A stretch of 40,816 bases of DNA, from positions 1-40,816 of the forward strand of contig CAUJGQ010000081.1 of NCBI GenBank assembly GCA_963170165.1. The letters run 5' to 3'. Positions 9,330-29,000 of the stretch are shown here, piece by piece. Within the stretch, counting starts at the first letter, position 1. Every line of letters begins with the position of its first letter. The DNA is from Chloroflexota bacterium (GTDB taxonomy: Bacteria; Chloroflexota; Dehalococcoidia; CAUJGQ01). The translations under genes were made by a program, and so were the position numbers. Under the pieces are notes generated by a model. That model did not search any database, was not told the origin of the DNA, and worked only from the letters and a program-made list of their open reading frames with translations.

Positions 9330-10355
9330 ATGCCCCGCGTTGGCCTGCACCAGGACCGCGCCCAGACGGCGCATGATACCGGCAACCACCCGGAGAACCC
9401 CGGCCGCGTCGCCGCCATTGTGCAGCATCTGGCTGCCACCGGGCTGCGCTCGGCGCTGGTCGATATTGCCGAGCGGGAGGCCACCGCCGCCGATTTGCTG
9501 CTGGCGCACGACGCCGCGCTGCTCCGGCTGGTGGAGCGGGCCGAGGCGGCCGGTGGCGCCTGGCTCGACGCCGATACGGTGGTGCTGCCCGGCTCGGCAG
9601 CCGCCGCGCGGCGGGCGGTGGGTGGGGCGCTGCAGGCGGTCGAGCTGGTGCTCGATGGCGCCCTAGACAGTGCCTTCTGCGCAGACCGGCCCCCCGGCCA
9701 CCACGCCACACCCCGCCGGGCGATGGGGTTTTGCCTGTTCAACCAGGCGGCCATCGCGGCCCGGCACGCCATCGCCCGGCGGGGGCTGTCACGCGTGGCG
9801 ATTGTTGACTTCGATGCGCACCACGGCAACGGCACCCAGGAGATCTTCTATGCCGCCGGCGGCGTGCTGTACTGCTCCCTCCACGAGTACCCGTTTTACC
9901 CGGGTACCGGCCATTGGCGCGAGACCGGAGCGGGGGCGGGCGCCGGCGCTACCGTCAATTTGTCGCTACCGGCGGGCAGCGGCGACGCCGCCTACCTGGC
10001 TGCCTGCGACCGGGTGTTGCTGCCCGTCGTGCGCCGCTTCCGGCCGGAGCTGGTGATCGTCTCCGCCGGCTACGATGCCCACCTGGCCGACCCGCTGGCA
10101 GACATGGCCGTCACCGCGGCGGGGTACGAGGGCATGGCCCGGCGGCTGGTCCAGCTGGCGGGCGACCTGTGCGCCGGCCGGCTGGTGATGGTGCTGGAAG
10201 GCGGCTACCGGCCGGCTGCGCTCGCCCGCGCTGTCGAGCTTACGCTACGGGCGATGCTGGGCGAGCCGGCCCATGAGGCGCCGCCCGCCGGCCCGGTGCA
10301 GCCCGCCGTCGAGCGGCTGCTGTCCGCAGCGGCGGCGCTGCACAGCCTCGGCTGA
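9330..10355 (+). CDS. Histone deacetylase-like amidohydrolase (acetoin utilisation family)
   Basis: The protein has 341 residues from ATG 9330 (GGAG about 11 nt upstream; an upstream in-frame TTG at 9297 adds 11 residues without homology). It shows the arginase-deacetylase fold signatures: HPENPGR, DRPPGHHA with the catalytic His pair, FNQAAIAARHA, IVDFDAHHGNGTQ (zinc-binding Asp and His), SLHEYPFYPGTG, SAGYDAHLADPL (zinc Asp) and LEGGY. Bacterial members deacetylate acetyl-lysine, acetylpolyamines or small acyl amides with a Zn ion; the substrate cannot be told here. The gene is divergent from marR (83-bp spacer) and may be controlled by it. Its 3' end runs into a minisatellite array 9 bp after the stop. 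Confidence 0.9.
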   Translation: MPRVGLHQDRAQTAHDTGNHPENPGRVAAIVQHLAATGLRSALVDIAEREATAADLLLAHDAALLRLVERAEAAGGAWLDADTVVLPGSAAAARRAVGGALQAVELVLDGALDSAFCADRPPGHHATPRRAMGFCLFNQAAIAARHAIARRGLSRVAIVDFDAHHGNGTQEIFYAAGGVLYCSLHEYPFYPGTGHWRETGAGAGAGATVNLSLPAGSGDAAYLAACDRVLLPVVRRFRPELVIVSAGYDAHLADPLADMAVTAAGYEGMARRLVQLAGDLCAGRLVMVLEGGYRPAALARAVELTLRAMLGEPAHEAPPAGPVQPAVERLLSAAAALHSLG

Positions 10356-10364
10356 GCACCCCGC

Positions 10365-10581
10365 GGTGACAGCGGTGACGGTGGTGACGGCAGTCCCCAG
10401 AACCGGTGACGGCGGTGACGACGGTGACGGCTATCCCCGAAAGGGTGGCAGTGGTGACGACGGTGACGACGGTGACGACGGTGACGGCAATGCCCGAAAG
10501 GGTGGCAGCGGTGACGACGGTGACGGCTATCCCCGAAAGGGTGACGGTGGTGACAGCGGTGACGGCAATTCCCGAGAGGGT
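10365..10581. repeat. 9-bp minisatellite arm B
   Basis: Tandem GGTGACGGC/GGTGACGAC/GGTGACAGC/GGTGACGGT units on the plus strand are broken by 12-bp inserts of the type (A/T)ATCCCCGAAAG, including variants AGTCCCCAGAAC and AATTCCCGAGAG. The total period stays a multiple of 3. It begins 9 bp after the deacetylase stop. It forms the left arm of a composite element whose right arm (11044-11270) is in inverted orientation. Confidence 0.92.
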
Positions 10582-10636
10582 CAGCGAGCGCGGGGAGAGC
10601 CGGACCCCCTGCCCTCCGGGCATCCCCCCTGCTAGG

Positions 10637-10870
10637 CTCATCATTCATCACAATTCGTGAGGAGCAGGTTCGCACCGCTCCGGAAAGGCGGTATCGGGCT
10701 GCCCGCGGGGATGGAGGGCGCGTGCGGCGTGCCGCCCACCCGGCTGAGGACCGCCCAGTTACCCAGATGCATGCGCCTTGCGCATAACCAATCGCCCTTC
10801 GTAGCAGAGACATGCGCCCAAAGCATGCCTCTAGCTCTCTCGCGACTCCAAAGATGTGACGAATGATGAG
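10637..10870. repeat. MITE-like segment bounded by 16-bp inverted repeats
   Basis: The left end CTCATCATTCATCACA (10637-10652) is the reverse complement, with one mismatch, of the right end TGTGACGAATGATGAG (10855-10870). Outside the ends the match resumes with CATCCCCCCTG on each side. The interior (about 200 bp) is less GC-rich than its surroundings and contains a perfect hairpin ATGCGC-CTT-GCGCAT (10771-10785). No convincing gene is seen inside; a weak minus-strand frame runs through it. It could be a non-autonomous transposable element nested in the composite repeat, or a structured RNA. Confidence 0.6.
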
Positions 10871-11043
10871 TGCCAGGGGGGATGACTAGGAGGGCGGGCA
10901 TCCCCCCCTCCTCGTTCACCCCCCCGAGTCGAATGTTGTGAGCGCAGCCCCCTTCGTTCACCGCCCTAGCAGGGGGTCGTGAGCGGAGCGAGCGGGGGGG
11001 ACGGGCAGCGCGGAGGAGCGGGCATCCCGCTACGCGAGCGGCC
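10871..11043. repeat. C6/G6 hairpin cassette block
   Basis: This is the core of the composite element, with degenerate cassette copies: TGCCAGGGGGGATGA, CACCCCCCCGAG, and CACCGCCCTAGCAGGGGGTCGTGAGCG split by small changes. It then runs through CCCGCTACGCGAGCGG, itself a dyad, into arm C. There is no gene. Copies here are more diverged than those at 1-203 and 19860-20030. Confidence 0.75.
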
Positions 11044-11264
<221 letters not shown>

Positions 11265-11270
<6 letters not shown>

Positions 11271-12467
11271 GGCGGCCAGCAGCTGGGCGATGATATCGGC
11301 GGCGACGAAGCGCCGCTCGGGGGCGATGCGCAGCCGGTCCCCGCACTGGCGAAGCAGGCCCTGCGCGATCAGCTCGCTGGCGGCGCTGCCGAACAGGGCC
11401 TCGAAGCGCTGCCCCCAGCGGGTGGCGAACCGCTCCAGGTCCAGCCCCTCGCTCAGCCGTAGCTCCATCGCCACCGCGTCGGCGAGGTCACGGTCACGCG
11501 CGGGCGTCTCTACAGACCGAATCCACGGCAGCCCACCGCCGGTCAGCAGGGGCAGCCACTCCGCCGGCGGCGCTGCCAGGCGGCCAGCCAGACGGCTGTA
11601 CGCTGCCGGCGAGGCGACCACGGCGAAGCGATGGCCGGCAAGATGCGCGTGCGCACCGGCGCCCAGCCCCAGCCATTCGCCGTCGCGCCAGTAGACGAGA
11701 TTGTGCCGGCAGGCGCGGCCGGGCAACGCCCAGTTGGAAATCTCGTACTGGGTGTAGCCCGCCGCCGCCAGCAGCGCCTGTGCCTGCTCGTACATATCGG
11801 CTTGCACGTCGTCATCGGGTGCGCCGGCCTGGCCACGGGCAATCCGCCGGGCAAGCGGCGTGCCCTCCTCGATGGTGAGCGCGTAGAGCGACAGATGCTC
11901 GGGGGCGAGGGCGGCGGCGCGGCGCAGGTTGCGCTCCCAGCCCGCGGGCGTCTGGCCCTCCAGCCCGAAGATCAGGTCCAGGCTGATGTTGTTAAAGCCG
12001 GCGGCCCGGGCGGCAGCGTATGCCTGCGTGGCAGCGGCGGCATCGTGGATGCGGTCCAGCCGTTGCAGCTCGCCGTCATCGAAACTCTGCACGCCCAGGC
12101 TGATCCGGTTGATGCCGAGCGTGCGCAGCCCGCGGAAGTAGGCGGCGTCTACCGTGCCCGGGTTCACCTCCAACGACCACTCGGCTCCGGCATCGATGGC
12201 GAAGGCGGCGCGGAGAGCGGTGATGATGCGCTCCAGCAGGGGCAGCGGCAGCAGGCTGGGGGTGCCGCCACCGAAGAATACCGTTGGCACGGGCGGGCTT
12301 GCCAGTAATGCGCCCCAGACGGTGATCTCGCGGATCATCGCATCGGTGTATGCGGGTATCAGCGCATCAAGGCCCGCGTAGGCGTTGAAATCGCAATAAG
12401 CGCAGCGATGATCGCAAAAGGGAATGTGGAGATACAGCGACAGCGGCGCAGTGTTCACAGCCACCAT
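11265..12467 (-). CDS. hemW: HemW-type radical SAM protein (coproporphyrinogen oxidase-like)
   Basis: The protein has 400 residues from ATG 12467. A longer in-frame extension exists but overlaps the divergent aspS gene and has no homology. The radical SAM cluster motif CxxxCxxC is at C18, C22 and C25 ([13 protein letters not shown]). Also present are the SAM-binding [28 protein letters not shown], and a C-terminal HemN-like winged domain. HemW is a heme-binding chaperone related to oxygen-independent coproporphyrinogen III oxidase HemN. The Shine-Dalgarno is weak. It is divergent from aspS with a 66-bp spacer. The stop codon is contributed by the minisatellite (CGG TGA C). Confidence 0.9.
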
Positions 12468-19660: not shown

Positions 19661-19690
19661 CCGCAAACGCCAAGGGGCCCGATGGCGGGC

Positions 19691-19810
19691 GGTGACGGCG
19701 GTGACGGCAATCCCCGAGAGGGTGACAGCGGTGACGGCGGTGACGGCAATCCGCGAAAGGGGTGACAGCGGTGACGGCGGTGACGGCGGTGACGGCAATG
19801 CCCGAGAGGG
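19691..19810. repeat. 9-bp minisatellite arm D
   Basis: Plus-strand GGTGACGGC/GGTGACAGC units with inserts AATCCCCGAGAG, AATCCGCGAAAG and AATGCCCGAGAG. One insert carries an extra G (run of four G near 19758-19761) that breaks the 3-bp phase. It lies about 75 bp upstream of the NTF2-like gene start and forms the left arm of a second composite element (19691-20165). Confidence 0.9.
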
Positions 19811-20066
19811 CCGGGCCGCTCGCGTAGCGGGCTGCCCTCTGCGCTGCCCGTACCCCCCCGCTCGCTGCGCTCACGACCCCCCTGCTAGGGGGGTGAACGA
19901 AGGGGGGGTGCCCGCCACCTCCGTCGCTGCCAGTACCCCCCCGCTCGCTGCGCTCACGACCCCCCTGCTAGGGGGGTGAACGAAGGGGCGCTGCCCGCCA
20001 CCCCCGTTATCCCCCCTAGCAGGGGGGATGCCCGCAGGGCAGGGGGGTCCGGCTCTCCCCGCGCTC
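19811..20066. repeat. C6/G6 hairpin cassette core of the second composite element
   Basis: The block opens with the dyad phrase CCGCTCGCGTAGCGG and contains two nearly identical tandem copies (about 19855-19915 and 19936-19995) of a module with hairpins ACCCCCC-TGCTA-GGGGGGT at 19876-19894 and 19959-19977. A reversed-loop hairpin ATCCCCCC-TAGCA-GGGGGGAT follows at 20009-20029, then GGGCAGGGGGGTCCGGCTC. No gene is present. Sequence identity with 1-203 is very high by eye. Confidence 0.85.
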
Positions 20067-20165
20067 GCCGTCACCCGCTCCGGGGATTGCCGTCACCACC
20101 GTCACCGCCGTCACCCTCTCGGGAATTGCCGTCACCGCCGTCACCACCGTCACCGTCGTCACCGG
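20067..20165. repeat. 9-bp minisatellite arm E (inverted to arm D)
   Basis: GCCGTCACC units on the plus strand with inserts at CGCTCCGGGGATT and CTCTCGGGAATT. The array ends in the stop codon of the ABC ATPase gene: its last codons are followed by CGG TGA C of the first repeat unit. It faces arm D across the cassette core. Confidence 0.9.

Positions 20166-27290: not shown

Positions 27291-29000
<1,710 letters not shown>

Follow-up and report, generated by a model that had tools for sequence, protein, structure and literature searches.

A 234-bp transposon-like element with inverted ends at the centre of REP-like palindromes in a Dehalococcoidia genome

Introduction

In a stretch of 40,816 nucleotides from the draft genome of a Chloroflexota bacterium of the class Dehalococcoidia (GenBank assembly GCA_963170165.1, contig CAUJGQ010000081.1), referred to in its full length as the window, a short segment with inverted ends is embedded in a composite repeat, and similarity between its two sides continues beyond these ends. 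From the letters alone, this segment had been proposed to be either a non-autonomous mobile element (MITE) inserted in the composite repeat or mobilising it, or a structured RNA. The locus thus raises the question of which of these accounts is appropriate and whether the outward similarity is a property of the element or of the DNA that surrounds it. Our analysis describes a tiny transposon-like piece of DNA without recognisable gene, for which the interpretation as MITE appears essentially right.

Results

Architecture of the element and its surroundings

The original prediction of a segment of about 230 bp with 16-bp inverted ends that differ at a single position is borne out by an element of 234 bp, whose terminal inverted repeats (TIRs) of 16 bp each are complementary at 15 of 16 positions in the window copy (Table 1) and which recurs in the genome with the same ends at 94–96% identity, so that chance can be dismissed. 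The sole mismatch is private to the window copy, as the TIRs are perfect over 16 bp in the other four of the five copies. The interior is lower in G+C than the window (64.9% vs 69.8%) and contains the anticipated perfect 6-bp hairpin with a 3-nt loop. The element is located between convergent genes, with a frame encoding a histone deacetylase domain on the + strand ending at 10355 to its left, and a frame on the - strand encoding radical SAM and HemN_C domains, which we take to be HemW-like, with its 3' end at 11265 to its right. Outside the TIRs, the sequences CATCCCCCCTG (10621-10631) and CAGGGGGGATG (10874-10884) are found one on each side. The proposed extended outer homology is thus present on both sides, but it belongs to the palindrome that served as target and not to the element.

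Table 1. Features of the element and of its target in the window.
Feature	Positions	Strand	Remark
Non-autonomous mobile element (MITE), window copy	10637..10870	+	five copies of 234 bp in source assembly, three intact and two split
Left TIR, CTCATCATTCATCACA	10637..10652	+	
Right TIR, CTCATCATTCGTCACA on the - strand, TGTGACGAATGATGAG on the + strand	10855..10870	-	one private substitution
Hairpin of 6 bp with 3-nt loop, ATGCGC-CTT-GCGCAT	10771..10785	.	none of 14 variable sites inside
Open frame of 75 codons, followed by TGA-TGA in right TIR	10639..10863	+	10 of 15 substitutions synonymous
Left target-site duplication, TGCTAGG	10630..10636	.	
Right target-site duplication, TGCCAGG	10871..10877	.	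one mismatch
Half of type A target palindrome, side with GGATGCCCGnAGGGCAGGG tail on the - strand	10607..10636	-	
Other half of target palindrome	10871..10884	.	CAGGGGGGATG arm at 10874-10884
Empty type A palindrome	20003..20035	+	unoccupied target for comparison

Copies in the draft assembly

A search of the assembly of the window's own genome (4.41 Mb in 213 contigs, 97.28% complete, with contigs breaking at repeats) returned seven matches at 94–96% identity, which correspond to five copies. Full copies are found in the window and in contigs C33 and C170, whereas the matches in C49, C90, C213 and C80 are partial and located at contig ends. In the split copies C49+C213 and C90+C80, the halves of each pair overlap by 106 identical bases and result in a joined length of 234 bp. 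The overlap alone is silent on which half pairs with which, and the assignment rests on matching duplications in the flanks; when the four partial copies are paired differently, no duplication results. The assembly breaks inside the element at this 106-bp identical overlap in all four contig ends, and the repeat thus shapes the ends of contigs. The search for further copies proposed alongside the original prediction has therefore been successful, with five in total in the draft assembly, and the interior is not single-copy.

All five copies are 234 bp long and differ by 15 distinct substitutions at 14 sites, without insertions or deletions. Compared to the majority sequence, the window copy carries nine differences and is the most diverged, while the others carry one to four. 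Together with its one decayed TIR position and its decayed duplication, this identifies the window copy as probably an old insertion. Scanning the assembly for the TIR pattern with up to three mismatches gave 51 matches (10 exact, one at two and 40 at three mismatches), and all ten exact sites are ends of the five copies. Among ten frames chosen beside the other copies, seven have a Pfam match, namely to an H+ pyrophosphatase (C33), a PIG-L deacetylase (C49), DUF2071 and a Trp_dioxygenase domain (both C170), a CoA-transferase (C213), a polysaccharide synthesis protein (C80) and an asparagine synthase (C90), and no copy is located inside a Pfam-matched frame among the ten. The same holds for the occupied palindromes, none of which falls within the neighbouring Pfam-matched frames that were tested.

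The insertion sites

Every copy is located at the centre of a palindrome, and the outward CATCCCCCCTG homology corresponds to the two arms of this palindromic target. The target-site duplication that was suggested to accompany the element is exact in four of the five copies (6, 7, 7 and 9 bp), with the sequences TAGCAGG in C33, CCTGCTAGG in C170, CTGCTA in C49+C213 and GAGCAGG in C90+C80, and extends over 7 bp with one mismatch in the window copy (TGCTAGG/TGCCAGG). As the duplicated letters differ between sites, they are outside the element, and the removal of one duplication yields a palindrome resembling the empty sites in the window. In a table of left by right flanks, some cross-pairs match too, such as the left flank of the window copy with the right flank of C170 over 9 bp, because the targets are alike.

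Read in one direction, four of the five sites share the consensus GTYRTCCCCCC(T/G)AGCAGG...GATGCCCG. The fifth, in C170, contains variants in one arm (GTGGGATACCCG) and the tail GATACCCG instead of GATGCCCG, so that one palindrome subtype accounts for four insertions and a close variant of it for the fifth. Relative to this subtype, the copies in the window, C33 and C49+C213 are oriented one way and those in C170 and C90+C80 the opposite way. Empty sites of the same subtype are found in the window at 138-170 and 20003-20035, both of which fold as single-stranded DNA with a 9-bp stem and a 3-nt loop, and for a variant palindrome at 2820-2852 the fold does not surpass that of shuffled sequences.

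The palindrome family comprises at least two subtypes, type A, which has a GATGCCCGnAGGGC tail, and type B, which carries GTCGTGAGCG or a similar sequence, and, viewed by eye in the flanks, CGTT or CGTC often precedes the palindrome. Its core CCCCCTAGCAGGGGG is of high copy number, as is typical of REPs, with 30 exact sites and, when up to two mismatches are allowed, 97 rows vs 17 for a reversed-pattern control, a count in which some sites are scored on both strands. Judged by their flanks, 7 of the 30 exact palindromes carry a tail of GATGCCCG or ATGCCCG. The coincidence of five insertions with such sites would on this basis amount to (7/30)^5 or about 0.0007, a rough and post hoc figure that counts the variant-tailed site of C170 as a member. 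A search of the own genome for the REP-associated tyrosine transposase Y1_Tnp (PF01797) at E up to 0.001 gave no match. We thus call the repeat REP-like only, and the spread of the palindrome family is without explanation from that source.

In the window, the palindromes are part of composite arrays at 10363-11270 and 19688-20164, with half-structures at 44-289, in which inverted minisatellite arms of the GGTGACGGC type surround a single type A palindrome together with at least one of type B (CGTTCACCCCCCTAGCAGGGGGGTCGTGAGCG). Dense arms were found at only two of the loci covered (18 scanned plus L130), both being the array loci of the window's contig, and no GGTGACG-type arms surround the other four copies within about 4-5.5 kb per contig in six contigs. 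Given the element-free composite at 19688-20164 and the copies devoid of such arms, we find no support for the proposal that the element mobilises the composite repeat. Elsewhere in the window, a perfect 7-bp tandem repeat, AGCGGTC, is present in 4.4 copies at 27294-27324.

Search for a transposase and for relatives

Among the 41 inexact TIR-like sites of the own assembly (up to three mismatches), no convergent pair was found, and in the flanks of the 34 that were viewed no target palindrome directly adjoins. One of them, a three-mismatch site at C100:10482, follows a CGTTCACCC motif resembling type B arrays and is about 100 bp away from palindromes at C100:10339-10397; as this site is single, it was taken as chance. 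Profiles of four DDE transposase families (PF01609, PF00872, PF13546 and PF13701), a minority of the transposase families that exist, gave no match in the own assembly at E up to 0.001. When 14 control genomes were searched, each of these four profiles and PF01797 was positive in 2 to 9. The suggested transposase with matching ends was thus not encountered in the draft assembly, whose gaps tend to fall at repeats, within the TIR-site and profile searches that were run.

At the level of DNA, relatives were detected in 1 of 60 genomes, which is the own. In 393 genomes of the class, with two candidates scored per genome, 31 showed a row at E up to 0.01, and those outside the own genome were pieces of up to 61 bp with E of 7e-5 or worse that were taken as chance. 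One genome (G066) matches the last 21 bp of the element, but its TIR-like site is single and the candidate was rejected. The TIR at up to one mismatch was found in 10 of 294 class genomes, with paired ends in the own only; two matches in another genome (G027) proved to be 7-bp tandem repeats. Pattern scans identified six stretches in genome contigs and one in viral contigs, about the number expected by chance, with surroundings that by eye are unrelated. Distant blastn searches gave two matches in plasmids (36 bp, E 0.2; 32 bp, E 0.7) and none in phages. These results refer to collections that may omit records very near the window's own genome.

Alternative interpretations

An account without transposition would treat the element as a built-in, inherited part of the composite array, carried from one array to another through recombination or gene conversion, as might be suspected from the location of all five copies within members of one repeat family. 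Most palindromes are without the element (five copies vs 30 exact cores), both orientations occur, homologous empty sites are present in the window, and the target sequence is duplicated on both sides with letters that vary by site. These site-specific duplications already speak against the simple form of this proposal, which we regard as extremely improbable. The structured RNA of the original prediction, either as a non-coding RNA gene or as an element acting at the RNA level with coincidental inverted ends, is likewise not supported and very unlikely. The whole unit with its arms does fold far above shuffles on both strands (z -5.45 and -5.29) and the hairpin is free of variable sites, but inverted ends placed within a palindrome would be expected to give a strong fold anyway. 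The interior alone is near ordinary (z -1.64 with 10 of 200 shuffles as good, and z -1.17 with 26 of 200), and the strength of the fold is thus ascribed to the inverted ends. No Rfam family reaches its gathering score in the element, the four matches in 10300-11300 being far below theirs, and no promoter-like or terminator-like site was found in 10340-11290. Five near-identical copies are too few for an analysis of compensatory changes.

A different concern arises from the + frame listed in Table 1, which is open in all five copies and spans 69 codons from its first GTG and 51 from its first ATG. The number of synonymous changes exceeds the simulated mean of about 4, with P 0.0013 when this frame is taken by itself and 0.0057-0.010 when the best of six is considered, an excess that is not predicted by a purely non-coding MITE. 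It might reflect a small mobile gene whose peptide is under purifying selection, either in a minimal coding mobile element or as a captured gene fragment, although we consider this improbable. The frame was picked after the data had been seen, and its first in-frame start, a GTG, is by eye without evident ribosome-binding site. Searches of Pfam and NCBIfam up to an E of 1 gave no match for it, and it has no tblastn match in plasmids, no relative in viral contigs and, in 399 other genomes of the phylum, two weak matches only (E 7e-4), which were judged as chance. None of the three long frames of the element has a match in Pfam or NCBIfam, the frame of the - strand having been searched in these two collections and in plasmids only. 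The opposite frame on the - strand shares the third positions, is also open over 75 codons and shows 8 of 15 synonymous changes, and seven of the ten synonymous changes of the + frame are private to the window copy. Considering these two observations and the few copies, we treat the synonymous excess as a weak signal and a lead only. An elaborated version, in which a 234-bp minimal mobile gene encodes a conserved protein of about 50-70 residues and is served by a machinery reading the hairpin geometry at the centre of one subtype, appears equally improbable.

Discussion

The element is best explained, with high confidence, as a MITE that was inserted by transposition at the centre of its target palindrome. 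The TIRs match, the duplications are specific to each site and the element occupies one target in both orientations, a combination characteristic of transposition by staggered cutting, and the part of the original prediction that placed a MITE inside a composite repeat is upheld by its multiple copies, its TIRs, its target-site duplications and the presence of empty homologous sites. As no recognisable transposase is contained in the element, movement in trans is most likely. A transposase, probably of the DDE type, would be supplied by another element, would cut at the TIRs and would join the excised DNA to a staggered break spanning the loop and the upper stem of the palindrome, where repair of the gaps would give rise to the duplication. 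The palindrome would probably offer a safe harbour outside genes. In view of the preference for one subtype, we lean towards recognition of the target by its sequence rather than by the shape of its hairpin. Set against this account are the missing autonomous partner, the reconstruction of two of the five copies from contig ends, the synonymous excess in one frame and the variable length of the duplications, as a range such as the 6–9 bp found here is unusual for a single transposase.

The five insertions, made at different places but always into the same kind of palindrome, in a genome that also contains unoccupied sites, provide a clean natural case of palindrome-targeted transposition, and they illustrate that similarity extending outward from such elements can belong to the target instead of the element. 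If the transposase were found, recognition of sequence vs hairpin would become directly testable.

Bacterial MITEs are described in PMC3733652 as elements of 70-300 bp with TIRs of 15-30 bp and without coding capacity, and in PMC10969869 as normally intergenic. By its length of 234 bp, its TIRs of 16 bp and its five dispersed copies flanked by duplications (four exact, one with one mismatch), the present element is of this kind. It differs from bacterial MITEs in general, as portrayed in these texts, by its marked preference for one palindrome subtype and in that no parental IS was identified. In titles and abstract openings of the literature on MITEs with REPs or targets or on Chloroflexi, no MITE restricted to the centres of palindromes is apparent for this group, which only weakly suggests that none has been published. 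QMITE2 and IS1111 of Coxiella likewise place a mobile element and a palindromic repeat one inside the other; there, according to PMC10969869, the REP within a MITE receives an IS, whereas here a MITE enters a palindromic repeat. Short repeats inside small palindromes also comprise GTAG-23 of T. roseum, found in CCGSSCC(n3,4)GGSSCGG, and the GTAG-15 dimers of A. variabilis. According to PMC3733652 these inserts are REPs, of the Y1-transposase kind, in contrast to the 16-bp TIRs and duplications observed here, where no Y1 transposase was found. Further parallels are REP-targeting IS with type 1 association (ISRm22, ISPsy8 and ISPpu9/10), all copies of which similarly reside in one palindromic repeat family. 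As reported in PMC1525189, ISRm22 and ISPsy8 insert at a symmetry axis of REP palindromes, ISRm22 with direct repeats of 6 bp, and Tn5 uses target sites that are palindromic and in which G-C pairs delimit the direct repeats. Unlike our element, in which none is recognisable, these IS are full elements with a transposase, and its duplications of 6 to 9 bp and its repeat, a C6/G6 palindrome of other sequence, set it further apart. Insertion at the axis of a palindrome is therefore already known for several IS, to which the present element adds a further, modest example with a clear target preference.
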